Below are positions 17,075-40,366 of a DNA stretch of 40,366 nt, one piece after another; positions within the stretch are counted from its first letter, which is position 1; each line of letters opens with the position of its first letter. The DNA lies in contig JAAUSY010000017.1 in assembly GCA_012032475.1 (NCBI GenBank), positions 1 through 40,366 on the forward strand. The letters are read 5' to 3'. Source of the stretch: Chloroflexaceae bacterium (lineage in GTDB: Bacteria; Chloroflexota; Chloroflexia; Chloroflexales; Chloroflexaceae). Under the pieces are notes generated by a model. It did not search any database and was not told the origin of the DNA. It saw only the letters and a list, made by a program, of their open reading frames with translations. Both the position numbers and the translations under genes were made by a program.

Positions 17075-17115
17075 GGGGGTGAGTTATCGTGAACCTGGCT
17101 TCGTTGACTGCTGAG

Positions 17116-23661: not shown

Positions 23662-24474
23662 ATGCGCGACTTCAAGTTCCATAACAATTTCACCCTGAAC
23701 CGTGAGCGCCTCTCGGCCATGCTTCGCTGCGTCGTCCAAGACCGCACCGCATCGAGAGAAGCCGTGGCTGCCGCTATGGGGGTCAACCCCTACATGGTCG
23801 AGGGCTTTCGTGGCTGGTTGTGCAAGACTGGCCTGGGTCGCTTCGAGCGCAAAACCTACACCATCGCTGAGTTCGGCAACGCTGTTGCCCACTATGACCC
23901 CTACCTGGAGCAACCTGGCACCCTCTGGGGGTTGCACTACCACCTTGTTGCCAGCCAGCAGGAAGAGCGTGCCGCAGTGTGGCATAGCTTCTTCAACGAG
24001 TTTGCTACGCCGGGCAAGAGCTTTACCAGCACCGAAATGAAGGCATATATGGAGCGCACACTTGCTCACACCGCCAACAGCCTTGGCTATGTTCCCGATG
24101 ATTGCAAAGAGTTTCTCAAGTGCTATGTGCGCTCGGAAGCCCTGGGCAGCCTCGGCTTGCTCCACAGTAGCAAAAAGGATACCTACGAAGTTGTGGGCAC
24201 ACAACCTGATATATCTATCGTCGCCTACGTCCTGTTCGATAGCTGGCAGCGGCGCTTCCCCACCTTCGACACCCTGCGGCTGACCCAACTCTGCGAAGAA
24301 CCAGAGATGATCGGGCGTATCTTCGTGATGGGCCGTACCCAGGTGCGGCAAACGGTGGGGATGCTGCAAAGCAAGGGACTGCTCACCTTTGCCGACACGC
24401 AGCATGAGCCGGTCACTCGACGTTTTCACGACAACCCGCTCGCATTCCTGGCGCACTCCTATCAAAGCCTATGA
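23662..24474 (+). CDS. DUF4007-family protein of the BREX-like operon
   Basis: From ATG 23662 (the frame also reads from TTG 23626, without a better ribosome site) the 270-aa protein shows DUF4007 features: FKFHNNFTLNRERLSAMLRC, a helix-turn-helix-like AVAAAMGVNPYMVEGFRGWL, and the conserved HYDPYLEQPGTLWGLHYHL near residue 85. DUF4007 proteins occur next to PAPS-reductase-type genes and in type 4 BREX-like or phosphorothioation loci (from memory); their molecular role is not established, but the HTH suggests DNA binding. It is the first gene of the operon and its stop overlaps the next start as ATGA. Confidence 0.82.
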   Translation: MRDFKFHNNFTLNRERLSAMLRCVVQDRTASREAVAAAMGVNPYMVEGFRGWLCKTGLGRFERKTYTIAEFGNAVAHYDPYLEQPGTLWGLHYHLVASQQEERAAVWHSFFNEFATPGKSFTSTEMKAYMERTLAHTANSLGYVPDDCKEFLKCYVRSEALGSLGLLHSSKKDTYEVVGTQPDISIVAYVLFDSWQRRFPTFDTLRLTQLCEEPEMIGRIFVMGRTQVRQTVGMLQSKGLLTFADTQHEPVTRRFHDNPLAFLAHSYQSL

Positions 24475-24941
24475 CACCCCTTCTCGAACGAGCAACGCAG
24501 CAGCTTCAATGGTGCTTCCAGCAACCGCGCTACCGGGTTGCCTGGCTGACTGGCCCTCCACGCTCAGGCAAAACCCATCTCGCCCGGCAACTAAGCGACA
24601 CGTTTGGGTGGCACTACCTTGACCACACCCTGACCCCCGGCTACTTCGACGCCCTGACTGCAACCATTGCCACCTACCATCCCGACCACCTGCTACCAAC
24701 CCTGAAAACGTGGATGGAAGCACGTCCCGCTCCAGTGCTGATTGTGGACGAGATAGACGCACTGCTTGCTACCTGGTCGCACGATCAGCGGCGTGTCTGG
24801 GCTAGCAAAGCCAGTCGCATCCCTTACCCACGCTGTGGGGTGCTCATCGTCACCCATCTGCTTGATTGCAGTACGCTTGTCAATTGTCTTCCCGATCAGG
24901 ATACTCGCTATTGTCTTGACCTTACGGGGGAAAGCTCATGA
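24471..24941 (+). CDS. brxF: Small P-loop ATPase, BrxF-like
   Basis: 156 aa with Walker A LTGPPRSGKTHLARQL (residues 26-41) and Walker B APVLIVDEIDALLATW (about 87-102), followed by a sensor-like CGVLIVTHLLD. The size and position, directly before a BrxC-type ATPase, match BrxF, the small P-loop protein known from type 3 BREX. Its likely partner is the BrxC-like product. The start overlaps the DUF4007 stop (ATGA) and the stop overlaps the brxC-like start (ATGA), so the three are translationally coupled. The finding of BrxF in an otherwise type 4-like cluster is unusual as far as I recall. Confidence 0.72.
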   Translation: MTPLLERATQQLQWCFQQPRYRVAWLTGPPRSGKTHLARQLSDTFGWHYLDHTLTPGYFDALTATIATYHPDHLLPTLKTWMEARPAPVLIVDEIDALLATWSHDQRRVWASKASRIPYPRCGVLIVTHLLDCSTLVNCLPDQDTRYCLDLTGESS

Positions 24942-27900
24942 CTGACACCAACCACCGTCTTGCTGAACTGGTCACTGTTGATGCTGAATTCAAGCCTTCG
25001 GTGCAGCTCCCAACCGACTTTGAACACCCTGAACTGAATGCGCGGTTGGTCAAAAGCTACATCCCAACAACGGATAGCATCGCCCTCTTTACCGAGCTAG
25101 CGCAGAGTCTCAACCCCAACAGCACCGAACGGGCCCGGATGCTCGTGGGAACCTATGGAACGGGCAAATCCGACCTGCTGCTGATGATTTGCAACTACCT
25201 GTCGCGTCCCGTTGATGACCCCGTGATGCAACCTTTCTACCAGCGGGTGCAAGCTGCCGACCCCACCAGACACGAGATTATCGTTCAACGGCGGAGCGGC
25301 AAGCTGCCGTTTCTTGTGGTGCTGTTGCAGGCCGATCCCAACACCCGCTTTCCTGGCTTCGTGATGCACGGGATTGAACAGGCGTTGGCGCAGCATGGGT
25401 TGGCAGACCTGATGACCAGGACCAAATATGAAGCAGCTCGTGAAAAACTGACCGAGTGGGAACAGAGCGGACATCCCCGCTTTCACGACTACTGCCAACT
25501 GCTCCAGGAAAGCGAAGGCAAGGAGATAGCGGGACTGCTGGCTGAACTTGCCAGCCCCCAGGCTGACCTGGTCTTCCCGGCCTTTCTGCGGGTGTTCCAG
25601 AAAATCACCGGCACGGACTTCAATGTCTATGGCTACAGCCAGCCTCACGAGGCGTTGGTCCAGGTCACACGGGCACTGCATGAGCGGGGAACACACAGCG
25701 GTATTCTGATTGTCTGCGATGAGTTCACCGAATTCTTGCGGCGCTTTGAACGGGCGATTGACCAGCAGTCGAGCGAGATTGACTCCGAGACGATGGCGGT
25801 GCAGAATGTGGCCGAACGAAGTTATTCTTCCGGGGCGGCGCAACTGCATTTCCTGGTTGCCAGCCTCGAAAGTTTTGCCGCAGCATCCATGGAGAGCAAA
25901 AGCGGCCAGGCCAGCAAAGCCATTGAGCGCCTGGGCGGGCGTTTCAAGCAGCATTCACTGGCGATACAGGCCGGGGAAGAGCTTATCAAAGGGGCTATTC
26001 GCAAGCACCAGGACCTCACGCTCCCGAACAGCCAGCGCGATGCACTGATGGACATCGCGACCCCGATATGGAAGCAGCAGGGACGCAACCGCGACTGGGT
26101 GCGCGACACGGTTGTCGTGGGGGCCTTCCCGCTCCACCCGCTGACCACTTATGCGCTGCCGCTGATCAACCGCAGCGTTGCCCAGAGCCAGCGCACGATG
26201 TTTCAGTTCCTCAAGAGCGACGAAGGGTTGATGGGCTTTGTCAATCGGGAAAACCTTACCACCCCGTTCTCTTGCTGGTACACCCTGCTGACGCTGGATG
26301 TACTGTTCGACTATTTCCAGGAAAGCATTGCTACCAGAAAGCCCGACCTTACCGACGCCTATCACCACTCGCTGCAAGCGCTGCACACGGCAACGGTTGA
26401 CACGCAGCTTGCCGAACGGGTCTTGAAGATCATTGCCTTTTGTGAAGTTGTCGCTCCTGACCAGGTGTTGTCTCCTACCCGTGCGCGGTTACAGCAGGCA
26501 TTAAACCTCCCTCCTGAAGCCAGCAGCGACCTTCAGAAAGCCCTTGACATCCTGGAAAAAGTTGAGGCCATCTATCCACCGGGATCAGAAAACGGCCTCT
26601 ACAGTCTGCCGCTGCCGGGGCGCGTCAGCGTCGTCAAGCTCAGGCAGCAGATACGGGAAATATCGCAAAAATCCCCGGTCAACGTAGCAGCACTCCAGTC
26701 CCAGTATGGGGCAGAATCCATCCAGGCCAGGGACTACAATCAACAGCGGGGGAGTCACCGTGAACTGACCGCATACTATGTCAGTGCAGAGGCCCTGCTT
26801 CAACCGGCACAACTGAAACTGAAAGGAGACTTGAGCCGAGCACCCGATGCGCTGCTCTGGTACGTGGTGGCAGTCAGCGACACCGAACGAGCTACCGCAC
26901 AGAGCGCGGCACGCGAATTGACCCGCCAGCATCGCAACCTGATTGTTGCCGTCCCTGTGATGCCGCTGCACATCCTGAGTGCGCTCCAGGACTATAAAGC
27001 CCTGGAACGGGTGCGCGATGTCCCGGACCTGGAAGGTGGAGCGAAAGCCTATCTTCTGGATACTGGCTTGATCGGGAAGGTATACCGTGCCAACCTTGAT
27101 CAGTCCCTCAAGACCCTGCGCGATGTTCGTCACTGGGAGTGGTTTGTCAACGGTGTTGGGCATACCGCACAGAGCCAGCCAAAGGTGTATGAAGTTGCCA
27201 GCAAGCTCATGGGACAGCTTTTCCCCGACACTCCGCCCCATCAACTGGCCCATCATTTCAAACCCGGCGCTCCTTCTCCGAGCCTGAAAAAGGCCGTCGA
27301 GAGTATTATCAAGGGAGAAGTACAGATTGCAAAAGCATCGAAGGGAGCAACAGAAACCATTATTCGTACCTGTGCTTCCTCGTTGGGCGTGCTGAAACTC
27401 GACAGAACCGAAGGATCATACGAAGTCTATGGAGCGAGTGAGCCTGATGCCGGTCTCATAGCCAGTAGAAAAGTATGGCGATTGATCCATGAGCAATTGG
27501 TGGCGGGCAAATCCTGGTCAAGCATTGCCACAACGCTCCGCAAGCCCCCCTACGGGTTGTATGACTCGCTGCTGCTGGTCTATCTAGCGGCATTCATCAC
27601 CACCTATGCCGACTCCATCGAAATAGGACCCAAGAAAGCCACCGCTGGACGCCCGAATGTAGATATCACGCTGCTGATGACGCTGCTTGACCACCCCGAC
27701 AGCTACACACTGCGCTTCCATCCGTTGAGCGATGCAGAACGGCGGTGGCTGCGTGGCCTTGTTGAACACGGTCTCAAAAGACCACCAGTGTCAAGTACCA
27801 CCCAGGGCAAATCCTTGCGAGCGAACGTTGCCGACGAGGTACACACCTGGATCAGACAGCTCAAATTGCCACTGCTGGTGGAGCAACTGCCCCTGGAAAC

Positions 27901-28432
27901 CGCTCAGGAGTTGATGCCCGAATGTCCCCAGACCATCCTTGCTGCTGCCCTCCTGATGGTTCAGCACAGGAAAAACCCGTCGGTCGTGCAGGTCGTGCTG
28001 ATGGACGACCTGCCCCAATCTCTTGGCGCACCCGCAGATCGCACGCAGTGGGGTGACGAGCACGCAACCGAATTGATAGCCCACTTTGCTGAAGTCCGCG
28101 ATACCTTGAAGCAATTTCCGCATGCGGTCAGGCTCTATGCCGAACAGCGCGTTGCAACACGCTTTGGCTACGAAGATCTGCCTGCTGAACAGCGATGGAA
28201 TGCTATCTATGGGTGGCGGCAGAAAAGGCAGGTTGTCAATCCAGAAACATTGAACACCTCAACTCGTACCCTCTTTCGTCTGATCAACGAACCACGCGGT
28301 TCGATTGAGCAGACCATCCTGGAAGAATACGCAAAGACGATTATCGGTATCAATACCGAGTACCAGCGCTGTCGTCGCTTGATAGCCTGGCCCGACTGGA
28401 ACAGGAAATCCAGAAAGCGCTTCAGGAAATAG
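24938..28432 (+). CDS. brxC: BrxC-like large P-loop ATPase, N-terminal and middle part
   Basis: 1164 aa in this frame. Walker A is LVGTYGTGKSDLLLMI (residues 69-84) and Walker B is GILIVCDEFTEFLRRF (255-270), as in the BrxC/PglY (DUF6079-type) ATPases of BREX systems; RLGGRFKQHSLAIQ follows. The central region is helical. From about residue 930 a repeated module begins (LSDAERRWLRGLVEHGLKRP). The frame ends WPDWNRKSRKRFRK, which is meaningless compared with the adjacent frame, where LSSLDSLARLEQEIQKALQE continues seamlessly. One base, probably a G at about 28366, is missing, so the true protein runs on to 30015. BrxC is essential for phage exclusion and is thought to act with PglZ on DNA. Confidence 0.82.
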   Translation: MTDTNHRLAELVTVDAEFKPSVQLPTDFEHPELNARLVKSYIPTTDSIALFTELAQSLNPNSTERARMLVGTYGTGKSDLLLMICNYLSRPVDDPVMQPFYQRVQAADPTRHEIIVQRRSGKLPFLVVLLQADPNTRFPGFVMHGIEQALAQHGLADLMTRTKYEAAREKLTEWEQSGHPRFHDYCQLLQESEGKEIAGLLAELASPQADLVFPAFLRVFQKITGTDFNVYGYSQPHEALVQVTRALHERGTHSGILIVCDEFTEFLRRFERAIDQQSSEIDSETMAVQNVAERSYSSGAAQLHFLVASLESFAAASMESKSGQASKAIERLGGRFKQHSLAIQAGEELIKGAIRKHQDLTLPNSQRDALMDIATPIWKQQGRNRDWVRDTVVVGAFPLHPLTTYALPLINRSVAQSQRTMFQFLKSDEGLMGFVNRENLTTPFSCWYTLLTLDVLFDYFQESIATRKPDLTDAYHHSLQALHTATVDTQLAERVLKIIAFCEVVAPDQVLSPTRARLQQALNLPPEASSDLQKALDILEKVEAIYPPGSENGLYSLPLPGRVSVVKLRQQIREISQKSPVNVAALQSQYGAESIQARDYNQQRGSHRELTAYYVSAEALLQPAQLKLKGDLSRAPDALLWYVVAVSDTERATAQSAARELTRQHRNLIVAVPVMPLHILSALQDYKALERVRDVPDLEGGAKAYLLDTGLIGKVYRANLDQSLKTLRDVRHWEWFVNGVGHTAQSQPKVYEVASKLMGQLFPDTPPHQLAHHFKPGAPSPSLKKAVESIIKGEVQIAKASKGATETIIRTCASSLGVLKLDRTEGSYEVYGASEPDAGLIASRKVWRLIHEQLVAGKSWSSIATTLRKPPYGLYDSLLLVYLAAFITTYADSIEIGPKKATAGRPNVDITLLMTLLDHPDSYTLRFHPLSDAERRWLRGLVEHGLKRPPVSSTTQGKSLRANVADEVHTWIRQLKLPLLVEQLPLETAQELMPECPQTILAAALLMVQHRKNPSVVQVVLMDDLPQSLGAPADRTQWGDEHATELIAHFAEVRDTLKQFPHAVRLYAEQRVATRFGYEDLPAEQRWNAIYGWRQKRQVVNPETLNTSTRTLFRLINEPRGSIEQTILEEYAKTIIGINTEYQRCRRLIAWPDWNRKSRKRFRK

Positions 28433-28509
28433 AGGAGCGATGGAAGGAAGCAGCACCGGGCGAAGACGTCTGGCGGGTTGGTCTGGCAAATGCGGCGACT
28501 GGCCGCCCG

Positions 28510-30015
28510 ATGACCAGCGCCTCCACCAGCGAGGTGGCCCGACACCTTGTCGCATGGGCACAGGGGTTCGCGTGGCCCGCCTGTGCCACCACGATAGACC
28601 TGCCCCACCTTCAGCAACTCTACCCCGACCTGGAAGCACCACGGTGTCAGGACATGACTTACCTCTTGCAGCGGGTACACGATGACGCTGCTCAGTGGGA
28701 GGCAGAAATTATCGAAACGCTGGCAAAGCAGTTTGGTATCCAGAGTTGGCGCAAGCAGGAAGTCCAGGATGCGCTCGAACGCTTTGCCGCAGCACTCCAG
28801 CATGCCTCGCAATTTGATATGCGCCTGCGTCAGCATGTGCTGACCAGCATTGCCAGCATCTTTGCTGATGCGTACGGGCCGCCTGCAACCGACATTCGCC
28901 CTGCAATACGTGAGGTTCTGGCGCACTGGTATACTGAACATCCCATTCCAGCGGAGAATGATTTGTCCGACGATGCCAGCATATTGCTGCGCCATATCAC
29001 TGCGGAGACAGGGGATGCCGAAACGGTGCTGCTCAGCACCCTGCCCCGCGCCCTTGCCGATATTGGTCAGGCATACCAGCAGTGGCCCACCTGCCAGGTC
29101 CTGGACCATTACCTTGCCAGCGTGCAGCAGGTGGTTGGTGAAATCAACGCCTACGTACCCCTGACCGGAGCGGAGCACGCCTGGCTCACCAGCATCGTGA
29201 CGCAAGGGTTGCGGCGACCACTGACTGAGACAGCCTGGGAGCAGCGGCGCTTGCTGGCGATAGTAGCGCAACACCTCCACGACTGGCTTTCTTCGCACCG
29301 GCTCCCCAGGTTTGCTGCTACTCTGAGTGAGCATGATATGCGGGAGTTGTTCCCGAAGTTTCAAGAACCCATAATCGCTACCGGCAGCGTGCTGGTTCAC
29401 TGTCTGTCCTGCTTGCCCGACGAGCTTGCATCCATGCTGCTGACCACGCTGCCCGCCGCGCTCGGTCAGCACGCAGCCAGCAGCGAATGGGGACAGAACG
29501 ATGTTGACGACCTGCTGGAGCGTTTCATGCTGGTATGCCAGCTTGTCAGGACGTTGGGCAACCGATTAGAGCACCATCTCTACACCTCAATAGGCAAGGC
29601 GTTCGGCGTAGCTGACGATGGCGACACGATTGCAACTATCCTGGCCGGGATTCACAACTGGCCGAAGCAGCACATCCTGCTGCCCGGCGAGAAGCTCTCT
29701 CCCAATGCGACCGCGCTGCACAGCGCTCTCCAGACAAGCGAGGCTGATCCCCGCAGTGCGTTGCTGGTCCGGCTCCCTCGAGAGATTTGCGAGGTGGGCG
29801 AGTCGTATGAGAAGTGGCAAACCTGGAATATCCGCACGACCTATGTCACCAGAATCTGCGAGGCCGCCTGCGAGATAGCGCAGCGCGGGCGGGTCGGTGA
29901 CGCCACGCCGCAGGTACAGACCCTCTGGGAGCAGTTCAAAGCACAGTTGAACGAACTCACCCCCGATGAACGGCGCTGGCTGATCAAGGCATTCAACGAG
30001 GAATTTCAGCCGTGA
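28510..30015 (+). CDS. brxC: BrxC-like ATPase, C-terminal part (continuation after frameshift)
   Basis: The frame is open from about 28369, giving LSSLDSLARLEQEIQKALQE, EIEERWKEAAPGEDVWRVGL before the first ATG at 28510. That ATG has no ribosome site, so this is the tail of the preceding gene rather than a separate one; together they make about 1,690 aa, well above the 1,200 aa or so usual for BrxC. It has no P-loop. It repeats a module already present in the first part: LTGAEHAWLTSIVTQGLRRP (from 29161) and LTPDERRWLIKAFNEEF (from 29956) echo LSDAERRWLRGLVEHGLKRP at 27725. Its stop overlaps the pglZ GTG start. Confidence 0.7.
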   Translation: MTSASTSEVARHLVAWAQGFAWPACATTIDLPHLQQLYPDLEAPRCQDMTYLLQRVHDDAAQWEAEIIETLAKQFGIQSWRKQEVQDALERFAAALQHASQFDMRLRQHVLTSIASIFADAYGPPATDIRPAIREVLAHWYTEHPIPAENDLSDDASILLRHITAETGDAETVLLSTLPRALADIGQAYQQWPTCQVLDHYLASVQQVVGEINAYVPLTGAEHAWLTSIVTQGLRRPLTETAWEQRRLLAIVAQHLHDWLSSHRLPRFAATLSEHDMRELFPKFQEPIIATGSVLVHCLSCLPDELASMLLTTLPAALGQHAASSEWGQNDVDDLLERFMLVCQLVRTLGNRLEHHLYTSIGKAFGVADDGDTIATILAGIHNWPKQHILLPGEKLSPNATALHSALQTSEADPRSALLVRLPREICEVGESYEKWQTWNIRTTYVTRICEAACEIAQRGRVGDATPQVQTLWEQFKAQLNELTPDERRWLIKAFNEEFQP

Positions 30016-32348
30016 TAACCATTCTGGAAGACCCGCACCACTACCAATCACCACCGCCCGACGCGCTCACAGCAGCGCACATTGCCGACTACGTCCCTGT
30101 GCGAATGGCGATTCAGCGGGCGCTGAATGACCACACTGCGCTCACCGTGCATGTTACCCATCCCACGCTGCTCCACTGGTTCAAAGACCTGCGAACCTAC
30201 CCCACTGATGTGGTCGCCTGGAAAATGGCTGACCCTGCCGAGGAGTTTGTTGCCTTCTTCGGCTTCGCGCCGCCTTCGCTCTTCACACGAGAGCGTATTG
30301 TCCAGCTTGATCTGGCATCGCTGACACCCCCACAGCCAGGCATTGCCGTTGACCCGGTGGCCTGGATTCTGGGACAGAAACTCGATGACCTGTGGGGATA
30401 TCCTCACGCCTACCCCGATCACCTGGCCCAGCTTGCAGCGTGGGCCGCGCAGCAACCCGCGCCCATCTCCAACCCTCTGCTGCCGCTGGCACAGGCACAG
30501 CTTGACCAGTGGGTTGCACAGAACGCTGCTTATGGTTATTTACAGGCTGCCACGCTCCGCAACGATAGCATCCGCATGCTTTTGCACGCCACGCTGTACC
30601 GCTACGACACGCAGTGGCTCCAGCAGCAGGGTTGGTACGATGCTCCGCTGATTGATGCCCCCCGCAACCAGTACGAGGTGTGCATCGCGCTCCTGGGCGA
30701 ACGAGCATCACTCATTGCATCGTACTGGAGCCGGGCATTTGCGGCCTCAGAGCAATCGCCTGAACTGCGTATCGCAGCTGCGATTGACCAGATGTCAGGA
30801 CTGAGCCAGGCGGAACTCACCTCCCTGACCAGCATTCTTGACCGTCACCCTGATGTCCTCGATACCGACCTGCTGCAACGCATTGCAGTGCGATTCGACC
30901 AACTGCCCACTGCCAGCAAGGTGGTGCAGGAGCTTGCCACGCGGGTGGTGCCCGCAACGCCACCCCTCCCCGACCCGGCGTGGTCTGTCGAGCGGTGGTT
31001 GCGGTGGGCAACGCAGGAGTATATGCCCTACTTCGCCTGGACTATCCGCAGCGGTCAGACACGCGAGCACCAGCGTGCCTGTGCCATCGCGTTTGCCGAC
31101 TGGCTCGCCGAATCCTACCCTGCCTGGCTCAACACTGAACCATCGCCCATCGTCATCAACCAGTATCAACAAATGCGCCAGGTCCTCGACCGCGACGCGC
31201 ACGCGCTGGTCGTCTGGCTCGTGGTGGATGGGCTGACGTGGTGGCAGGGAGAGCATCTCGGCGCAGCGTGCGAGCAGCGTGGCGTCTATCCACAGGCGCA
31301 GGCAGCAGGCGTGGCCGCGCTTCCTTCCATCACCAGCGTCTCCAAGCGCGTGCTGGTAACGGGGTTGCCTGCAACCGAGACGTTGCCCCCGACCATTGCC
31401 CAGGCCGCACGTGAACAACTTGGCAAGAGCGGCATCCCCCACCACGTCTGTTCCACGATGCAGGAAGGCATCAGCGTGCTGCAAAGTGGTGCTCCCCTCC
31501 GCTGCCTGGTAGTGCTGTTCAATCTGCTCGACCACGTTGCCCACGACACCCCGACCTTTACTGACAATGCTGGCATCCGCGGCTACCTGAACGACCTGGC
31601 CGACGGCCTGGTGAGAATGATGCAGACGTGTATTCAGCAAGGACAGGCATTTCATGCGCTGATTGGCAGCGACCACGGCAGCACGCTGCTGCCTGCCGAC
31701 GCCACGTGTCTGCCGCTCCCTGCTGAAGCTCAGGAGGTGTTCGACATCTGGGAGGATGAGACGACGGTCCAGGCTGAGAAGCACAGCCCACGGGCAGTTG
31801 TCGTCACCGACCCGCACCAACTACCACCCGATGTAACCACCCACTGGTATGTGCTGGAACGCACGCGCTACCAACTTGCACAGCACTACCTCGTACCACG
31901 CGGCTACGCCGCCATCAAGCGCCGCCCCACTGGGTGGACACACGGTGGCCTGACACCGGAGGAGGTGATCGTGCCGCTGCTGCACCTTGCACCAGAGCGG
32001 CTTCCACTGGAGCAGATTACGGTGCAACTGGTGGGAGCACTGCGAGCTAACCAGCAAACCGCGCTCACGCTGGAGGTGGTCAACCCCAACCCGGCCCCAC
32101 TCAACGCGGTGAGCATCCAGGTGGACGGGGTTGGCTCGCTGCCCACGATTGAGCGCATTGCTGCAATGAGTACGCACCGGATGGAGATAACCTTCCCCCC
32201 CATCTCGACCCGCGAGACGGAACTGGTGGTGCGGTGGGTGGTGCGCTGCCACGTTGCCGGTACACCCCACGAGCAGCAAGGGCAGCAGCGCATCCCGGTG
32301 CGACGGTTGCAGGTTGAGGACGAGAGCATAGACGATTTCTTTGATTGA
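30012..32348 (+). CDS. pglZ: PglZ-domain protein (alkaline-phosphatase fold)
   Basis: 778 aa starting at GTG 30012, overlapping the brxC-like stop. The N-terminal 330 residues are helical and lineage-specific. The PglZ domain of the alkaline phosphatase superfamily follows: VVWLVVDGLTWWQG with Asp406 as metal ligand, LPSITSVSKRVLVTG (439-453) as the nucleophile loop, LFNLLDHVAHD (503-512), ALIGSDHGSTLL (549-560) with the Asp-His metal ligands, and GWTHGGLTPEEVIVPLLHL (641-659) with the last His. The C-terminal 110 residues look like an immunoglobulin-like beta domain. PglZ is the hallmark of BREX/Pgl phage-exclusion systems; at least one homologue is a metal-dependent nuclease/phosphodiesterase. 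Confidence 0.92.
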   Translation: MITILEDPHHYQSPPPDALTAAHIADYVPVRMAIQRALNDHTALTVHVTHPTLLHWFKDLRTYPTDVVAWKMADPAEEFVAFFGFAPPSLFTRERIVQLDLASLTPPQPGIAVDPVAWILGQKLDDLWGYPHAYPDHLAQLAAWAAQQPAPISNPLLPLAQAQLDQWVAQNAAYGYLQAATLRNDSIRMLLHATLYRYDTQWLQQQGWYDAPLIDAPRNQYEVCIALLGERASLIASYWSRAFAASEQSPELRIAAAIDQMSGLSQAELTSLTSILDRHPDVLDTDLLQRIAVRFDQLPTASKVVQELATRVVPATPPLPDPAWSVERWLRWATQEYMPYFAWTIRSGQTREHQRACAIAFADWLAESYPAWLNTEPSPIVINQYQQMRQVLDRDAHALVVWLVVDGLTWWQGEHLGAACEQRGVYPQAQAAGVAALPSITSVSKRVLVTGLPATETLPPTIAQAAREQLGKSGIPHHVCSTMQEGISVLQSGAPLRCLVVLFNLLDHVAHDTPTFTDNAGIRGYLNDLADGLVRMMQTCIQQGQAFHALIGSDHGSTLLPADATCLPLPAEAQEVFDIWEDETTVQAEKHSPRAVVVTDPHQLPPDVTTHWYVLERTRYQLAQHYLVPRGYAAIKRRPTGWTHGGLTPEEVIVPLLHLAPERLPLEQITVQLVGALRANQQTALTLEVVNPNPAPLNAVSIQVDGVGSLPTIERIAAMSTHRMEITFPPISTRETELVVRWVVRCHVAGTPHEQQGQQRIPVRRLQVEDESIDDFFD

Positions 32349-32364
32349 GCCAGGGGGAAACAGC

Positions 32365-33780
32365 ATGGCGGAACTCCAGCGCTACGAGCAAAAGGCACAG
32401 CAGGTGTTTGGCGAAGTGTGTGTGAACAAAGCCCTGGTGCAGCAGGCTGGTTTCGGCACACGCAGCATCCCCGCCTTCGTGAGCGAGTGGATTGTCACGC
32501 GCAACGCGCCGGATGGCGTGCTCGACGACACATCCCGCGAGCGCATTCGCACCTTCCTGAACAAACACCTCCCTACCCGCGACCAGAAAGAGCACCTCAA
32601 AGCGCAGCTTCGCAACGGCGAAACCCTCACCGTCCTCGACCAGTACCGCGTGACGGTTGACCTGCACCAGAATGAGTTTCGCCTTGCCATCCCCTGCCTG
32701 GACGAAGCGGCAGCAAGTATTGAAAGCCACCTGCCCGAAACATACCCGCTGCTGCTTGGCGGCGGTATCTGGGGCGTGGGCAAACTGCAATACTATCCCC
32801 CCGATTATCAGCGCAAGACGGGGCAAATCTGGATGGTGGATTTTCGCCCGATGCAGAACGCTCGCCTGGATATGGATCTCTTCTGCGAGAACCGCGCCGC
32901 GTTTGAGCTAGACGAGTGGCGCAACCTGCTGATTGCCAGCATGGGCTACAACCCGGAGGCATACAGCATCGCGCAGCAGATGCACCTGCTCACGCGGCTC
33001 GTGCCGATGGTGCAACAGCGGGTGAACCTGATCGAACTTGCGCCGAAGGGCACGGGCAAATCGTTCATCTTCCTCAACCTCTCGCGCCATGTGCGGCTGG
33101 TGTCGGGCGGCAAAGTGACCGCCGCTGCGCTCTTCTACAACAACGCCACGCGCCAGCCGGGGCTGTTGAGCAACTACGACGTGGTGGTGTTCGACGAGGC
33201 GCAGTCCATCTCGTTCGACAACCCCGGCGAGATTATCGGTGTTCTGAAGGACTACCTGGAGTCGGGTAGCTTTGCGCGTGGCGGCACGCAGAAAATTGAG
33301 GCGGGGGCGGGGCTGGTGCTGCTGGCAAACATCCCGCTGGACGAATACAAGCGCCCGCTGTACGACAACCTCTTCGCGGAACTGCCCGCCTTCCTGGGCG
33401 AAACCGCCTTCATAGACCGCATGCACGGCATCTTGCCAGGGTGGGAGCTGCCGCGCATCCAGCAGTCGTTCATCGCAACGGGGATGGGCTTCAAGGCCGA
33501 CTACTTTGGCGACGTGCTGCACCACCTGCGGAGCCGTGCAGGGTATGAGCACCTGGTGCAGCAGCACAACATGATTACGGGCACGAACGACCGCCGTGAC
33601 CTCACGGCGATCTCGCGACTGGCGACGGGCTTCTGCAAGCTGCTCTTCCCGCACGCGACGATGAGCGCGGGCGACTTCCGCGAATACTGCCTGAAGCCGG
33701 CGGTGCAGTTGCGCCAGCGTGTGCGTGACCAGCTTTGCCTGCTCGAACCGGAGTATGAGGCAGTGCGGATGGGGTGGTAG
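32365..33780 (+). CDS. brxL: BrxL-like AAA+ protein, short form without Lon protease domain
   Basis: ATG 32365 with AGGGGGAAA upstream, 16 bp after pglZ. The 471-aa protein has the BrxL N-terminal domain (FGEVCVNKALVQQAGFGTRS, then IPAFVSEWIV), a beta-strand segment with NGETLTVLDQYRVTVDLHQN, and an AAA+ domain with Walker A IELAPKGTGKSFIFLNL (about 223-239), Walker B YDVVVFDEAQSISF (271-284) and sensor LVLLANIPLD. Long BrxL proteins (about 680 aa) add a Lon-like domain; this one ends soon after the AAA+ lid. I recall a shorter BrxL subfamily of about 450 aa, so it is probably complete. BrxL forms DNA-binding ring multimers and is needed for exclusion, not for methylation. Confidence 0.9.
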   Translation: MAELQRYEQKAQQVFGEVCVNKALVQQAGFGTRSIPAFVSEWIVTRNAPDGVLDDTSRERIRTFLNKHLPTRDQKEHLKAQLRNGETLTVLDQYRVTVDLHQNEFRLAIPCLDEAAASIESHLPETYPLLLGGGIWGVGKLQYYPPDYQRKTGQIWMVDFRPMQNARLDMDLFCENRAAFELDEWRNLLIASMGYNPEAYSIAQQMHLLTRLVPMVQQRVNLIELAPKGTGKSFIFLNLSRHVRLVSGGKVTAAALFYNNATRQPGLLSNYDVVVFDEAQSISFDNPGEIIGVLKDYLESGSFARGGTQKIEAGAGLVLLANIPLDEYKRPLYDNLFAELPAFLGETAFIDRMHGILPGWELPRIQQSFIATGMGFKADYFGDVLHHLRSRAGYEHLVQQHNMITGTNDRRDLTAISRLATGFCKLLFPHATMSAGDFREYCLKPAVQLRQRVRDQLCLLEPEYEAVRMGW

Positions 33781-33923: not shown

Positions 33924-36509
33924 ATGCACGAACACCTTGACAAGAAGAAGTTCCGGGGACTGCTGATACTCACAAGTGTGATATTGATTATAGTTCTCTT
34001 GCTAACTTACAGTGGTCCCTGGATACTGAAGACATTAGGTGTGACCAAAGCGTTTCTCCTGATCGGAGCATATGGAGTTGGCACTTCTGGTATTACGCTT
34101 TTTTTTGTTTCCATCAGACGGCACGTACCGGCGCGATGGAGGAGAACCGGAGGGTGCGTCGTGCTGGCAATGTTGTGGTTTGCGTGGGCAGCACTGGGAT
34201 CATTAGTAACCGGGGCATTTGGCATTACTGGCGGAACTACACTCCTTATATTGACTTGCGCTATCGTCTTTCTGTCATTACGTATTTTTCCTTCTCAGGC
34301 AGGGTTTCTGATAGTACGCAATCTCCCGCACACGATCCAGGTAGCGGCTGATCTTCACGCATTACCGCTTGTTTTTTTGAAGCCTGAGCGATTTCCACGA
34401 TTCCTTGCCCGTCAGCATGCAAATGTAGCCTTGTTTATTTATCTTACGCCCCTTGGCGATAAATCGGAGAACGAGGAGAAAGCAATCTGGCACTTACACC
34501 AGGCACTTGAGGTATACGAACAATGCAAAGAGGCTTCTTCCAGAGATCTGGCACGATGGGCTGATGTTATGTGCCGTCTGTCCCGGGTTTACATCGATCG
34601 TATTCGAGGAAACCCTGCTGAGAACAAGACTACTGCACTGCGTTATTTGCAATGTGTCGAAGAGTATACTCGACCTATCAGATCGAAGGAGTGGGCAAAA
34701 GCACTGGCTTTAATGGGGACAATCTACGTAGCACAGAAGGCAGAAGATGATTCAGAGATGTCAGCAAACATTGAACAGGCAATCGGACTATATCACCAGG
34801 CATTGACCATTATGAACCGTATATCACATCCTGCTGATTGGGCAGTTATAAACACACAACTGGCACGAGCCTACCACGAAAGGTTGGAAGGCGAGAAGCA
34901 GCATAACCTGGAGCAGGCCATAGTCCATGCACAAAGATCGCTGGAGGTATTCACTCGTCAGAAAAACCCCTATTTGTGGATGCTCGCTACAGAGCAACTT
35001 ATCTTTGCTACGTATAAGCTTGCCACACTACGAGATGAACTGGAAGCACACATAGAATGGATTATTGATGCAAACAAGCATATTTTGAAAACACTCTCGC
35101 CCGCCTCTCTTCCCAGGGAATATCGCCTTCTTGCCACAAGGCTTGGCTCGTTATACGTGGACAAAGGTGACACCTATAACGCCATTCGGTGGTTTGAAGC
35201 AGCACACCGTGCCATCCAGCACCTGCGCGGCGAAGCCCCGCGCCAGGAAACGAAGCGTCGTATCTCGCAGGAGAATGTCAACCTTTACGCTCAACTTGTT
35301 GCCTGCTGTTTGCACGAGAACGATACCACCTCGGCATTTGAGTACACTGCCGCGGGCAAGGGTCGGGCCTTTGTTGACACGCTTGACAGCACGCGCTTCG
35401 ACTTGCTGGTTGCTGTCGCGGACGACCCGACCCTGGCGCAGGATTGGCAGCAGGCTCGCGCCCTGCGTCAGCAGATAGACAACATCCAGATGCAACTTGG
35501 TGGTCAATCTGGTGCCATTGCCGATGGAGAACAAAACCAGCGTATGTTGTTTGACACCCTGCCCAGGTTGAAGCAGCAAGAGAAGACACTGTGGGAAGAC
35601 TTGAGCTACAAGTACCCCGCACTTACCGCCACACAACAAGCTCCCATGCTCACCACCGCCGACGCGCAGGCACTGGCGCGGGAGCTTGGCGCAACCCTCG
35701 TTGAATACTACTATCATGCCGAGGGATGGTGTGCCTTTGTCGTGTCGCCAGAACAGGTGCAGTATGTGACCCTACCAGCCATCACGGAAGATCTGATGGA
35801 TAAGATGATCGACAGGTTATTCAAGATGGACGACCCTTTCTGCCGCACCAACCCTAAGCTGATGGACGAGTACCTGCACGACTGGCACGCAGCGGTCATC
35901 GCGCCTCTGCGCGAACATCTACCTGCTGGTGGCAGGGTTATGCTAGCTCCGCACTGGGTGCTCAACTTCTTCCCCATCGGCGCAGCGTGCGACCCGCAGA
36001 GTGGGCGCTATGTTTGCGAGGACTATTTGCTTGCCTTCGCGCCAAGCCTCTCTGCGCTGTGGGTGATGCACCAGCAAGCCGCAAAAACGCAGCCTTCCGA
36101 GCGTGGGCGAAATAGCTTGCGCGTTTTCAGTGCCGCCTATGCACCCGACATCCCCGGCCTGGTACCCGCTACCCGTCAGACGGTGCAGGCATTTGCACCA
36201 GACCTGATTGAACAGTATGATAGGGTTACGCCCGACGCCATCATCGCCGCGGTGCGGCAACAACCCGCCCCGGACGTCCTCCACATCGCGGCCCACGGCT
36301 GGTTTGATAGGGAGATGCCCGAACAATCGGGGCTGGAGTTGCAAGGTGGCTGGCTCACCGTGCAGCGCATCATCATCGAGATGCCCTTGCAGCACACCCG
36401 GCTGGTCACGCTAGCCTCGTGCCTGCTTGGGCGGGCCAGCCTGGAGCAGAGCGGCGAGGCGGTCGGCATCACGCAGGCATTCCTCACGGCAGGGCGCGGT
36501 CGGCGGTGA
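33924..36509 (+). CDS. Membrane-anchored TPR-CHAT caspase-like protease (frameshifted near the end)
   Basis: The rebuilt protein is about 922 aa. The N-terminus has four predicted membrane helices at about 13-33, 43-65, 77-96 and 99-120 (for example LLILTSVILIIVLLLTY). Residues about 165-470 are TPR-like helical repeats (AIWHLHQALEVYEQ, ALRYLQCVEEY, AIGLYHQALTIMNR, AIVHAQRSLEVF, AIRWFEAAHRAI). From about 595 a CHAT domain begins: GATLVEYYYHAEGWCAFVVS, HWVLNFFPIGAA, the catalytic His in VLHIAAHGWFD (about 791) and catalytic Cys in LVTLASCLLGR (about 833). The frame derails at the GGG run 36492-36494, where one G is missing. CHAT proteases are caspase relatives that act in immunity and cell death. 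The first 1.2 kb is distinctly AT-richer than the CHAT half. Confidence 0.85.
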   Translation: MHEHLDKKKFRGLLILTSVILIIVLLLTYSGPWILKTLGVTKAFLLIGAYGVGTSGITLFFVSIRRHVPARWRRTGGCVVLAMLWFAWAALGSLVTGAFGITGGTTLLILTCAIVFLSLRIFPSQAGFLIVRNLPHTIQVAADLHALPLVFLKPERFPRFLARQHANVALFIYLTPLGDKSENEEKAIWHLHQALEVYEQCKEASSRDLARWADVMCRLSRVYIDRIRGNPAENKTTALRYLQCVEEYTRPIRSKEWAKALALMGTIYVAQKAEDDSEMSANIEQAIGLYHQALTIMNRISHPADWAVINTQLARAYHERLEGEKQHNLEQAIVHAQRSLEVFTRQKNPYLWMLATEQLIFATYKLATLRDELEAHIEWIIDANKHILKTLSPASLPREYRLLATRLGSLYVDKGDTYNAIRWFEAAHRAIQHLRGEAPRQETKRRISQENVNLYAQLVACCLHENDTTSAFEYTAAGKGRAFVDTLDSTRFDLLVAVADDPTLAQDWQQARALRQQIDNIQMQLGGQSGAIADGEQNQRMLFDTLPRLKQQEKTLWEDLSYKYPALTATQQAPMLTTADAQALARELGATLVEYYYHAEGWCAFVVSPEQVQYVTLPAITEDLMDKMIDRLFKMDDPFCRTNPKLMDEYLHDWHAAVIAPLREHLPAGGRVMLAPHWVLNFFPIGAACDPQSGRYVCEDYLLAFAPSLSALWVMHQQAAKTQPSERGRNSLRVFSAAYAPDIPGLVPATRQTVQAFAPDLIEQYDRVTPDAIIAAVRQQPAPDVLHIAAHGWFDREMPEQSGLELQGGWLTVQRIIIEMPLQHTRLVTLASCLLGRASLEQSGEAVGITQAFLTAGRGRR

Positions 36510-36691
36510 CGGCGCTCTGGTCGGTGGAGGTGAATGCAACGATGAGGCTCTTTCAGGCGTTCTACCACCGCATCAGGGCCGGTGAGCCGCCCGCCGTGGC
36601 GATGCGCGGGGCGGTGGAGGAGATCCGCAGGGAGGGATGGGAGCATCCCTACTACTGGGCGGCGTTTCAGGTGTATGGATTGGCGTTTTAG
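36494..36691 (+). CDS. C-terminal end of the CHAT domain in the shifted frame
   Basis: This frame gives ARSAVTALWSVEVNATMRLF, QAFYHRIRAGEPPAVAMRGA and YYWAAFQVYGLAF with stop at 36689-36691. It is the invariant CHAT C-terminus (usually GA-SVV-SLW-V-D--T, then P-YWA-F-L-G). Restoring one G in the run at 36492-36494 fuses it to the upstream frame as LTAGARSAVTALW. It has no start site of its own. Confidence 0.85.
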   Translation, partial: ARSAVTALWSVEVNATMRLFQAFYHRIRAGEPPAVAMRGAVEEIRREGWEHPYYWAAFQVYGLAF

Positions 36692-36717
36692 CGAAGGGTA
36701 AGAAGGAGGAAGCCGTG

Positions 36718-37167
36718 ATGGAAGATAATGAGGCGCTTGTTCGACACGGATCGGGTTTGCTCGAATTGATGACCATGGACCCGGATACTCTCTGGGCCGC
36801 CCTCGATGAGGAGGAGCGGGAGAGGGTGGTGCATACCTTGCAGCAGTTCGACGTTCGTCTTGCCGCCGCAACGACTGAAGCGGACCTGGCCGGGGTTGCT
36901 TCCGAGGTGTTGCGCCTGGTCAACGATACCCCGCCCCTGCGAGATATGCTGGTTTCCGACGAGATGAAAGCGCAGATGACCACCATGAGTGGCGGGGGCG
37001 GCGTTCTGGGTGGATCTGGAACGATAGCCCCCGGACGACGGACAGAGTATGCCAGAGCGATGCGCTACAACGTGGCAGTCGTGCTTCATCGTCCGCCGGG
37101 GGGGCGTCCGCCGGGGGGGCGTCCGCCGGGGGACCCGACCACTCTCCCACCACCACCGTCGAGATGA
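36718..37167 (+). CDS. 149-aa protein of the CHAT module with Pro/Gly-rich tail
   Basis: ATG 36718 is preceded by AAGGAGG, 26 bp after the CHAT stop. Residues 1-85 are helical and acidic (LVRHGSGLLELMTMDPDTLW, EEERERVVHTLQQFDVRLAA, LAGVASEVLRLVNDTPPLRD), then a Gly-rich hinge GGGGVLGGSGT, and a tail containing GGRPPGGRPPGD and TTLPPPPSR. I recognise no family. The tail is encoded by three 15-bp tandem units containing G7 runs, so its reading frame is vulnerable to sequencing error. Sitting between a protease and a membrane protein, it could be an adaptor, an inhibitor or the protease substrate; this is inference from position only. Confidence 0.6.
   Translation: MEDNEALVRHGSGLLELMTMDPDTLWAALDEEERERVVHTLQQFDVRLAAATTEADLAGVASEVLRLVNDTPPLRDMLVSDEMKAQMTTMSGGGGVLGGSGTIAPGRRTEYARAMRYNVAVVLHRPPGGRPPGGRPPGDPTTLPPPPSR
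37091..37135 (+). repeat. Three 15-bp tandem repeats
   Basis: GTCCGCCGGGGGGGC occurs twice in tandem, followed by a diverged third copy GTCCGCCGGGGGACC. They encode the repeated GGRPP of the 149-aa protein's tail. The G7 runs may vary in length by slippage or be miscounted. Confidence 0.8.
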
Positions 37168-37210
37168 AGATGCTGTTGTCGATTCGGACACCCTGCAAGG
37201 ATGAGCGGCC

Positions 37211-38197
37211 ATGTTTACCAAACTCCCGGAACTCTTTGAGCGGAACTTTCTGATCGGGTACTTCGTGCCAGTGCTGAGTTTCCTGGTTGCCAGCCTGTTT
37301 CTGCTCGGCGAATTCGGTGTTTTGCCACCCACCCTCACCACCAATCTGACCATCACCAGCGAAGTTGATGCCCTGATTGGCGTCACGGTCATTGGCCTGT
37401 TGACGTGGGTGGTGAGCATCTTTCTGCTGGCAATGAACCGCGATATCGTGCGGGTTATCGAAGGGTATGGCGGCTGGAATCCCGCACGGGTCTTTGCTGG
37501 CCTGGAGCGACGACACTACCAGCGACTCTGCCGGGAGATATCCCGTCTGAATGAGGAGTATAGAGCCTGTCATGACGAGGGGCAGCTTTTCCCGCCGCAG
37601 AAACATGCACGGCTTGCGCAACTGCTGCAAGAACGAGTCGGGCACTTCCCGGACGATGCACAATGGCTGCTGCCCACCTCGTTTGGCAACACCATCCGAG
37701 CCTTTGAGGTCTACCCACGGGTGATGTATGGTGTGGACGCTATCCCTGGGTGGAACCGCTTGCTGGCGGTGATGCCAGAGGCGTATGCCCAACTGGTGGA
37801 CAATGAAAAGGCCATCGTAGACTTCTGGGTTAACATGTGGCTGGCAAGCCTGTTGTGCCTGGTTGAATACGTGGGGGTCGCCCTGTACACCCACACGATA
37901 GTGGCCCCCTTGCTGCCGCCGATTGCGCTTGCGCTGCTGCTCTTTGCCTACCTACGAGCCAGAAGCGCCGCAGTCGAGTGGGGGGATATGTTCAAAGCGG
38001 CCTTTGACGTGTTTCTCCCCGATCTGCACCGCAAGTTTGGCTTCACTGGAACGCGCAAACCCAGGAAGAGCAACATGCCACCTGGAAACAGTTCAGCCAG
38101 GCGGTTCTCTACTCCAATCCAGACCATCTGCCAGAACGGTCGTGGGAGGAGTGAGGGGGAGGATAAGCAGGGGCAATTTTCCACAGATACTGCCTGA
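37211..38197 (+). CDS. Four-helix membrane protein of the CHAT module (frameshifted near the end)
   Basis: ATG 37211, 43 bp after the 149-aa gene. Two hydrophobic helices lie near the N-terminus (about 14-34, LIGYFVPVLSFLVASLFLLG; about 53-76, ALIGVTVIGLLTWVVSIFLL), then a 125-residue cytoplasmic or external soluble loop with LERRHYQRLCREISRLNEEY and FGNTIRAFEVYPRVMYGVDA, then two helices at about 205-250. After FGFTG (about residue 282) the frame is lost: adding one base at about 38052 gives AQTQEEQHATWKQFSQAVLY, SNPDHLPERSWEE and TGA 38152-38154, so the likely protein is about 314 aa. No known family is recognised. The position suggests the membrane effector or receptor of the module. Confidence 0.72.
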   Translation: MFTKLPELFERNFLIGYFVPVLSFLVASLFLLGEFGVLPPTLTTNLTITSEVDALIGVTVIGLLTWVVSIFLLAMNRDIVRVIEGYGGWNPARVFAGLERRHYQRLCREISRLNEEYRACHDEGQLFPPQKHARLAQLLQERVGHFPDDAQWLLPTSFGNTIRAFEVYPRVMYGVDAIPGWNRLLAVMPEAYAQLVDNEKAIVDFWVNMWLASLLCLVEYVGVALYTHTIVAPLLPPIALALLLFAYLRARSAAVEWGDMFKAAFDVFLPDLHRKFGFTGTRKPRKSNMPPGNSSARRFSTPIQTICQNGRGRSEGEDKQGQFSTDTA

Positions 38198-39295: not shown

Positions 39296-40248
39296 GCTAT
39301 GATTTTTTTGCCCAGACCCAAGAACTTACCCTGCAAGAGCTACAGAGTAAGGAGAAGTTGCCATTGTGGAAAAGCAAGCGTCCTGATCCAGCAATTGAAT
39401 GGCTCAAACGACTTGATTTGCTCCCAACGAGCCAGATAGATTCTGTTATCGAACACTTGCCCCCTCTGAGCTTTGCCCTCACGCTGCAATTTCAGCTCGC
39501 CAAACCCTATATCAGCCGTGACGAAACGTCGTTCTCCATTATCGAGAACCCGGTTCGCAAGGAGTGGGTGTTCAAGGTGCCGTATGTCGCGCCGAGCGGA
39601 TGGAAGGGTGCGCTGCGGGCGGCACTGTGGCAAAACCTTGGAAAAGAGGTGCATGAGACTGACGAGCAGGTAAAACGTTTGTTTGGCGAAATTCGAGACG
39701 ATACAACTGGACAAGCAGGCTGCCTGCACCTTTACCCAACGTTCTTCGACCAGGTAGGGCTGGAAGTCATCAATCCTCACGACCGTGAGAGAGGTATCGG
39801 GAAACGAGGCCCCATCTATTTTGAGTGTGTGCCAGCACAGGCGACCGGGCGATTAACCATGCTCTATGTGCCTATCAAGGTTCCCGCAAGGGCTGCGGAG
39901 GTGGCAGAGGATTTGCGAATTTTGGCAGAAGGGGTCGTCGCTATGCTCACCACCTACGGCTTCGGCGCGAAGACCAGCAGCGGCTATGGTACTGCGGAGG
40001 ATGCATTGCAGGGAGTGGGGCAACTGGTGGTGCATGCTGCACTGTCATACCCGGGTGTTGCTGAAAAGCCTGGGGATACAACGCAATCTGAAACACCACA
40101 AGCCCCCTCACGCTATCAGGAACCTTCAGGGTACCTCATTGCCGCTCTCCGTCAGGATGATGGCAGCTTGAAGTCTGAAGCGGATTATCAAGCCAGCGTT
40201 GAACGGCAGGGGAAAAAGTACACCAAAAGCGAAAAAACAGTTCTATGA
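39292..40248 (+). CDS. RAMP-superfamily type III CRISPR protein (frameshifted near window end)
   Basis: ATG 39292 overlaps the cmr1 stop; a longer reading upstream is only the shadow of cmr1. The N-terminal 60 residues are helical (SYDFFAQTQELTLQELQSKE). RAMP features follow: FALTLQFQLAKPYISRDETS, the NPVRKEWVFKVPYVAPSGWK pattern running into GALRAALW (the insertion-strand and helix typical of Cas7-like proteins) and a Gly-rich TTYGFGAKTSSGYGTAED near residue 230. Identity within type III is unclear: it is not Cas10, which normally follows cmr1, and resembles no single Cmr subunit well enough to name. At the A6 run 40232-40237 the frame shifts; the protein continues to the window edge. Confidence 0.72.
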   Translation: MSYDFFAQTQELTLQELQSKEKLPLWKSKRPDPAIEWLKRLDLLPTSQIDSVIEHLPPLSFALTLQFQLAKPYISRDETSFSIIENPVRKEWVFKVPYVAPSGWKGALRAALWQNLGKEVHETDEQVKRLFGEIRDDTTGQAGCLHLYPTFFDQVGLEVINPHDRERGIGKRGPIYFECVPAQATGRLTMLYVPIKVPARAAEVAEDLRILAEGVVAMLTTYGFGAKTSSGYGTAEDALQGVGQLVVHAALSYPGVAEKPGDTTQSETPQAPSRYQEPSGYLIAALRQDDGSLKSEADYQASVERQGKKYTKSEKTVL

Positions 40249-40366
40249 GAAAGCAAAGAAATGGTGGGAACGCGAAGGGCGTGATTTCTGGCAGCAGCAA
40301 CAGGCTACCCCGGAGCCTGCACCTGCACCAAAACCCTTCCTACAACAACAGCCTACCCTTTCGAGA
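40238..40366 (+). CDS. Continuation of the RAMP protein in the shifted frame (runs off the window)
   Basis: After the A6 run this frame reads QFYEKAKKWWEREGRDFWQQ, then QATPEPAPAPKPFLQQQPT to the window end. The charged helix and Pro/Gln-rich linker follow naturally from KYTKSEK in the upstream frame if one A is removed. It has no start site. The Pro/Gln linker suggests a further domain beyond the edge. Confidence 0.62.

Follow-up and report, generated by a model that had tools for sequence, protein, structure and literature searches.

Which enzyme, if any, marks self DNA for a BREX-like operon whose contig carries neither a PAPS reductase nor a PglX methylase? The question is raised by five consecutive genes in the genome of a Chloroflexaceae bacterium, for which the first-pass annotation had left two answers open: a hybrid system marking self by an enzyme encoded elsewhere, or a system stripped of its modification gene. 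Here we argue that the five genes are, with high probability, the restriction half of a two-complex, phosphorothioate (PT)-coupled BREX-like defence system that has become separated in this genome from the sspBCD genes.

The five-gene operon

The window, the whole stretch of DNA analysed here (40,366 nucleotides), is the entire contig C69 of a 4.61 Mb assembly that comprises 310 contigs and is 92% complete. The named relatives of the source genome belong to the Chloroflexales (Chloroploca, Oscillochloris, Viridilinea). The operon and its parts are as follows:

23662-33780, plus strand: operon DUF4007'-small AAA ATPase-brxC'-pglZ-brxL
23662..24474, plus strand, ATG start: DUF4007', putative DNA-binding subunit of SspB/BrxA type in the restriction half
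24471..24941, plus strand: small AAA+/STAND-like ATPase (156 aa), candidate BrxB/BrxF counterpart
24938..28432, plus strand: first part of brxC' up to the frame break, ORC/Cdc6-type ATPase with Walker A motif GTYGTGKS
28363..28381, plus strand: approximate site of an apparent one-base frameshift in brxC'
28378..30015, plus strand: C-terminal part of brxC' in a second frame, with a 501-aa ORF from 28510
30012..32348, plus strand, GTG start: pglZ, alkaline-phosphatase-fold nuclease, predicted effector
32341 (TTG) or 32365 (ATG) to 33780, plus strand: brxL, a short version lacking the Lon protease domain

All five plus-strand genes lie where the first-pass annotation had placed them, with the overlaps it described (ATGA, ATGA and GTGA). 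Profile searches identify DUF4007' by PF13182 (100.7 bits) and PADLOC SspB (2.1e-27), and the protein is 44-55% identical to the product of the second DUF4007 gene in composite loci of close Chloroflexales. The small ATPase is matched by Pfam AAA (2.1e-5) and AAA_22 (4.5e-6), carries Walker A (GPPRSGKT) and Walker B (VLIVDEID) motifs and is modelled with an AAA+/ORC-type core (pLDDT 86.6). Its earlier label as BrxF-like holds only weakly: the protein is the genome's best match to NF033453, but its score of 17.5 bits falls short of the cut-off (50). BrxL is matched by PF13337 (BrxL_ATPase, 4.9e-110), PF20442 (3.3e-24) and TIGR02688 (465 bits).

By sequence, PglZ is weakly matched (NCBIfam, 1.8e-7 to 7.7e-6, all under cut-off). 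When its structure model (pLDDT 88.7) is searched with Foldseek, the top PDB match is the Acinetobacter BREX PglZ (9zn5_B, E 1e-15), followed by PorX. Residues D406, T441, D507, H511, D554, H555 and H644 are invariant across 11 aligned sequences. T538/H741 mutation of the E. fergusonii PglZ reduced or abolished cleavage (PMC12205998); T441 and H644 of the window protein match these two in residue kind and in spacing (203), a correspondence drawn from spacing and fold rather than from direct alignment. The window protein has both the PglZ fold, in its structure model, and the metal-site Thr/His pair expected of BREX in the broad sense.

The BrxC-like ATPase gene reported earlier is indeed present (24938-30015), but in two frames rather than one open frame. 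Profile matches (PADLOC SspC 1.3e-55, BrxC 7.1e-14) assign its predicted product to the SspC/BrxC-type ATPases. Identity to the full-length BrxC' proteins of relatives is 46-50% for the first part; for the C-terminal part, compared with residues ~1150-1700 of the same proteins, it is 33-41%. This latter part contains a second copy of the C-terminal repeat, with 22% identity to BrxC' residues 927-1144. Seven relatives have BrxC' as a single protein of ~1,680-1,740 aa, and the alignment with these follows window frame 2 for 24938-28381 and frame 1 for 28378-30009. Since the relatives' proteins are continuous over both frames, we read the window sequence as one gene with an apparent one-base frameshift; the 501-aa ORF (28510-30015) is excluded as a separate sixth gene because the relatives' BrxC' runs through it.

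As the first-pass annotation had noted, the complete contig has no match to PF01507 and none to Eco57I/PglX methylases. Pfam and PADLOC profile searches likewise found no HerA/FtsK translocase among the operon genes. When remnants of sspBCD were sought upstream by tblastn, the matches were the homologous DUF4007' and BrxC' themselves and nothing else. A broken transposon in the upstream region, as proposed, is plausible. Among the minus-strand fragments at 17.8-23.5 kb, one encodes a TnsC/TniB-like AAA protein (Pfam AAA_22), and another, spread over several frames and matched by no profile, reads plausibly as a TnsB/Mu-type transposase. Further upstream, the stretch 16529-17083, which falls inside a gene for a 518-aa AAA ATPase, is duplicated at 82% identity at the left end of another contig, C131 (34-581).

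The displaced sspBCD genes and the relatives of the operon

A genome-wide search for PAPS reductases and PglX, as the first-pass annotation had advised, located both. The PAPS reductase is SspD on contig C131, which encodes a complete sspB-sspC-sspD PT-modification set, the gene complement of SspBCD-dependent PT defence, with an apparent frameshift in sspC (PADLOC: SspB 1e-87; SspC 1.2e-219 for its second part; SspD 1.2e-111). This SspD is intact, is the sole PAPS-reductase-family (PF01507) match in the assembly and scores 370.9 bits on the PADLOC SspD model vs 34.6 on that for BrxP. Its presence speaks against a system stripped of its modification gene: the sspBCD marking partner is displaced, not lost. 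PglX forms part of a separate type 1 BREX system, with BrxC and PglX parts on C220 (1-3.8 kb) and the PglX end, PglZ and a Lon-type BrxL on C230 (L143), which apparently brings the BREX-like systems of the source genome (G000) to two or more. Elsewhere on C220 (15080-15784, minus strand) lies a third, truncated DUF4007 gene of SspB type, with transposase-like ORFs nearby.

C69 and C131 overlap at their right ends, in head-to-head orientation:

40159..40366, no strand assigned: contig-end overlap with C131:34529-34323 (reverse), 206/209 identical

C69 ends with cmr1 and cmr6, and reversed C131 supplies cas10, cmr4, cmr5 and cmr3. The joined order cmr1-cmr6-cas10-cmr4-cmr5-cmr3 makes one type III-C operon with each subunit present once, which supports the adjacency independently of the overlap; the evidence for the join is a single overlap of 209 bases between metagenome contigs, plus the CRISPR gene complement. 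Along it run the five-gene operon, a CHAT-domain protein, two uncharacterised genes, the type III CRISPR-Cas genes and an inverted sspD-sspC-sspB set on the minus strand, with ~12.3 kb between brxL and sspD. Neither SspE nor SspFGH was recognised among the scanned C131 genes, the neighbour of sspD being the type III CRISPR operon. A cysteine desulfurase gene is absent from C69 and C131, with candidates elsewhere in the genome.

The CHAT gene of the window (33924-36509), located after brxL and ahead of the type III CRISPR-Cas genes, encodes a TPR-CHAT protein, as does another gene on C131 (L004:2379-5222); both products are possibly CRISPR-associated protease effectors. The two uncharacterised genes between the CHAT gene and cmr1 (36637-38197) encode proteins of 176 aa and 328 aa with no Pfam or NCBIfam match; the larger, which has an N-terminal hydrophobic stretch, has no PADLOC match either.

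A class-wide search found relatives of BrxC', and a GTDB-wide scan yielded 35 loci that were labelled with profiles built here. The five-gene order, for which a survey of other genomes had been suggested, does occur in them, mostly directly behind sspBCD. In ~22 distinct loci, in which the small-ATPase slot is sometimes filled by an unlabelled ORF of similar size and some of which are cut by contig ends, the order is sspB-sspC-sspD-DUF4007'-small ATPase-brxC'-pglZ-brxL, all on one strand. These linked loci span the Chloroflexota, Bacteroidota (Hymenobacter), Desulfuromonadaceae, Myxococcota and Thermomicrobiota. Carriers of the system that are in culture include Chloroploca sp. Khr17, Viridilinea mediisalina and Levilinea saccharolytica. 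A search with SspD found sspD upstream of the five-gene set on the correct strand in genomes G001 and G040. Within the class, SspD is present in 12 of the 15 genomes with the restriction half vs 20 of the 143 others (Fisher p = 2e-7, indicative as the genomes are related). That sspBCD sits directly upstream in relatives explains the missing modification gene of the window; the modification gene that BREX in the broad sense carries in the same locus is absent from the window and present in most relatives. Together with the C131 genes and the contig overlap, the linked loci support the first of the two answers, a hybrid in which the enzyme for marking self is encoded at another place. At two loci examined by sequence reading (L089 and L092), a cysteine desulfurase-like gene lies behind the locus.

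A second split case is found in genome G045, with the restriction half on contig C8 and sspBCD on C2, both large contigs; no recognisable effector lies beside sspBCD on C2. In Kamptonema, sspD is downstream and inverted, beside sspE, and a cysteine desulfurase gene is upstream. A Rubrobacter MAG and Clostridium lacusfryxellense have a PglX-like methylase in the place of sspBCD, that of Rubrobacter identified by NF033452 (3.6e-17) and Eco57I (5.6e-18) and that of Clostridium by similarity to it. One genome counts against our explanation: G005, 93% complete, has the half-operon and no SspD match, and its BrxC' is the closest relative of the window BrxC'.

Two further loci showed unusual arrangements. 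In the first (L052:7295-11590, G048:C254), most of SspC is joined to BrxL in one frame of 1,431 aa beside sspB, the result of a deletion that fused the two or else an artefact of assembly; SspD was not found in the G048 genome. The second, from Bacillota bacterium AS20ysBPTH_44 (L085:2154-13543), encodes a DUF4007 protein, a 1,438-aa BrxC-like ATPase, a BrxP-like protein, a second DUF4007 protein and a second ATPase, with no PglZ match in this stretch, and suggests that reader/ATPase sets occur in pairs more widely.

Phylogenetic comparison across BREX types made use of BrxL instead of PglZ, since the shared PglZ domain is too divergent. In the BrxL tree, the window sequence nests among linked composites from Chloroflexales, the SspBCD-linked sequences as a whole have the methylase-linked pair as their neighbouring branch, and canonical type 4 and type 1 sequences lie outside on long branches, that of type 4 being very long. 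In the SspC tree, the C131 protein is sister to two linked composites (98/98). Among Chloroflexales, linked composites intermix in this tree with other Ssp systems, including an SspFGH-linked one, and co-evolution or strict co-inheritance of the two halves is therefore not demonstrated.

Comparison with known defence systems

The operon had been labelled as type 3-like and type 4, and both labels fail at profile cut-offs. With type 4 BREX (brxPCZL) it shares DUF4007, an ORC-type BrxC ATPase, PglZ, BrxL and, probably, PT chemistry; both BrxL and DUF4007, features of type 4, are present in the window. Type 4 differs in having a single BrxP, whereas here a separate SspB-SspC-SspD set would do the marking, and the restriction half is equipped with a DUF4007 and an ATPase of its own as well as a free small ATPase. 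There is no BrxP in the window operon, as judged by PF01507, and PglZ reaches 24.7 bits on NF033445 against a cut-off of 140, where the canonical type 4 PglZ of genome G389 scores 617.9 bits. Conversely, the models of the present group give only 18.9 (PglZ), 49.7 (BrxC') and 358 bits (BrxL) for L153, a canonical type 4 locus with a single BrxP-like gene. In a 2026 survey of BREX diversity, type 4 is one set of five or six components, and a PAPS reductase is missing from the neighbourhood of about 11% of the loci annotated as type 4 (PMC12839542). Type 3 BREX also has a small P-loop ATPase adjoining BrxC and PglZ; the window operon differs from it in having no BrxHII and no PglX-type methylase, and in addition to the low BrxF score given above, its PglZ scores 27.2 bits vs a cut-off of 250 on NF033449.

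The known partners of SspBCD are SspE and SspFGH. Both SspABCD-SspE and SspABCD-SspFGH have the SspBCD modification genes in common with the system described here but differ in the effector, for which the present system has a five-gene BREX-like set, and a sspBCD-sspF-sspG locus was found in a Chloroflexota genome. As counterparts of the five genes, we rejected SspFGH, the proteins of which differ (PMC8092258), and PbeABCD, whose helicase-nuclease, CxC ABC-ATPase and DndE are all absent here (PMC6459918, PMC10853773). BRC (BREX-related capture) systems, as set out in the BREX survey, also bring together DUF4007, a STAND-type ATPase, a BrxC-like ATPase and PglZ, a HerA/FtsK translocase being defining and GNAT or TGT often present (PMC12839542); the window operon has BrxL in the translocase place, with no HerA/FtsK, GNAT or TGT seen. 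The two-set arrangement was not found in the sections of that survey's main text that were consulted (PMC12839542) or in the other papers cited here, and the five-gene set looks like a further SspBCD partner beside SspE and SspFGH.

A two-complex model and its alternatives

In its intact form, the system would comprise eight genes, sspB-sspC-sspD followed by DUF4007'-STAND-brxC'-pglZ-brxL. Addition of the PT mark by SspBCD is applied here by homology (PMC8092258, PMC12839542): SspB as DNA reader, SspC as ORC-type ATPase and SspD as PAPS-reductase-type sulfurtransferase would, with a cysteine desulfurase, place sulfur onto the DNA backbone at a short motif. A second set, with a separate DUF4007 reader and a further ORC-type ATPase that would load or translocate on DNA, would detect incoming DNA that lacks the sulfur mark, and PglZ (a predicted metal-dependent nuclease) and BrxL (a DNA-binding AAA+ protein) would be directed against this unmarked DNA, with the small STAND-like ATPase perhaps serving as switch or scaffold. 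Apparently, then, one DUF4007/ORC-ATPase set is for marking (SspBCD) and the other for attack (PglZ/BrxL), and the separated halves of this genome would work together.

A less probable account, though one to be taken seriously, is that after the rearrangement both large ATPase genes became frameshifted, leaving neither marking nor restriction working here. The apparent frameshifts in brxC' and sspC point this way, as do the broken transposon genes directly upstream of the operon and the truncated further DUF4007 fragment on C220, and once marking was gone, loss of the attack half would be favoured too, since SspFGH is toxic when no PT marks restrain it (PMC8092258). Against this, pglZ, brxL, sspB, sspD, DUF4007' and the small ATPase each retain an open frame and a conserved sequence, and the sole differences between C69 and C131 in their overlap are three homopolymer indels, which suggests sequencing error as the source of the frame breaks. 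The same assembly contains an intact rpoB (1,403 aa), so that such errors are not everywhere and decay may be real; sequence error and decay are both possible for the breaks in brxC' and sspC.

It is unlikely that the five genes form a mark-free innate system sensing replicating or invading DNA, with sspBCD merely a neighbour in a defence island. The G005 operon would suit such a system, and DndFGH has been proposed to stand alone (PMC10853773), but contiguity with sspBCD in ~22 loci, the strong co-occurrence and the substitution of a PglX-like methylase for the upstream sspBCD in two loci all argue for a link with marking. Least credible of all is an ordinary type 3 or type 4 BREX using the PglX of the type 1 system in trans, for although that PglX is encoded in the genome (C220/C230), its operon is a different one, complete with a BrxC, a PglZ and a Lon-type BrxL, the scores of the window proteins fall under the type 3 and type 4 cut-offs and the relatives pair with sspBCD.

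We consider the chances evenly balanced that the five-gene set is an interchangeable attack cassette for self marks of different chemistry, served by the SspBCD PT mark on the backbone in most lineages or by PglX-like base methylation in Rubrobacter and Clostridium, and that the SspBCD version uses two separate ORC-ATPase complexes for marking and restriction, where type 1 BREX shares a single BrxC.

Marking and restriction by type 1 BREX both require the same BrxB-BrxC-PglZ set (PMC13326643), and this sharing makes the switch between the two hard to see. Here, marking and restriction apparently have a reader and an ATPase each, and their genes may even lie at separate places; the halves should therefore be separately expressible and the sensing of unmarked DNA directly testable. 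The system would add an effector type to the SspBCD family, together with a methylase-linked version of the same effector for comparison.
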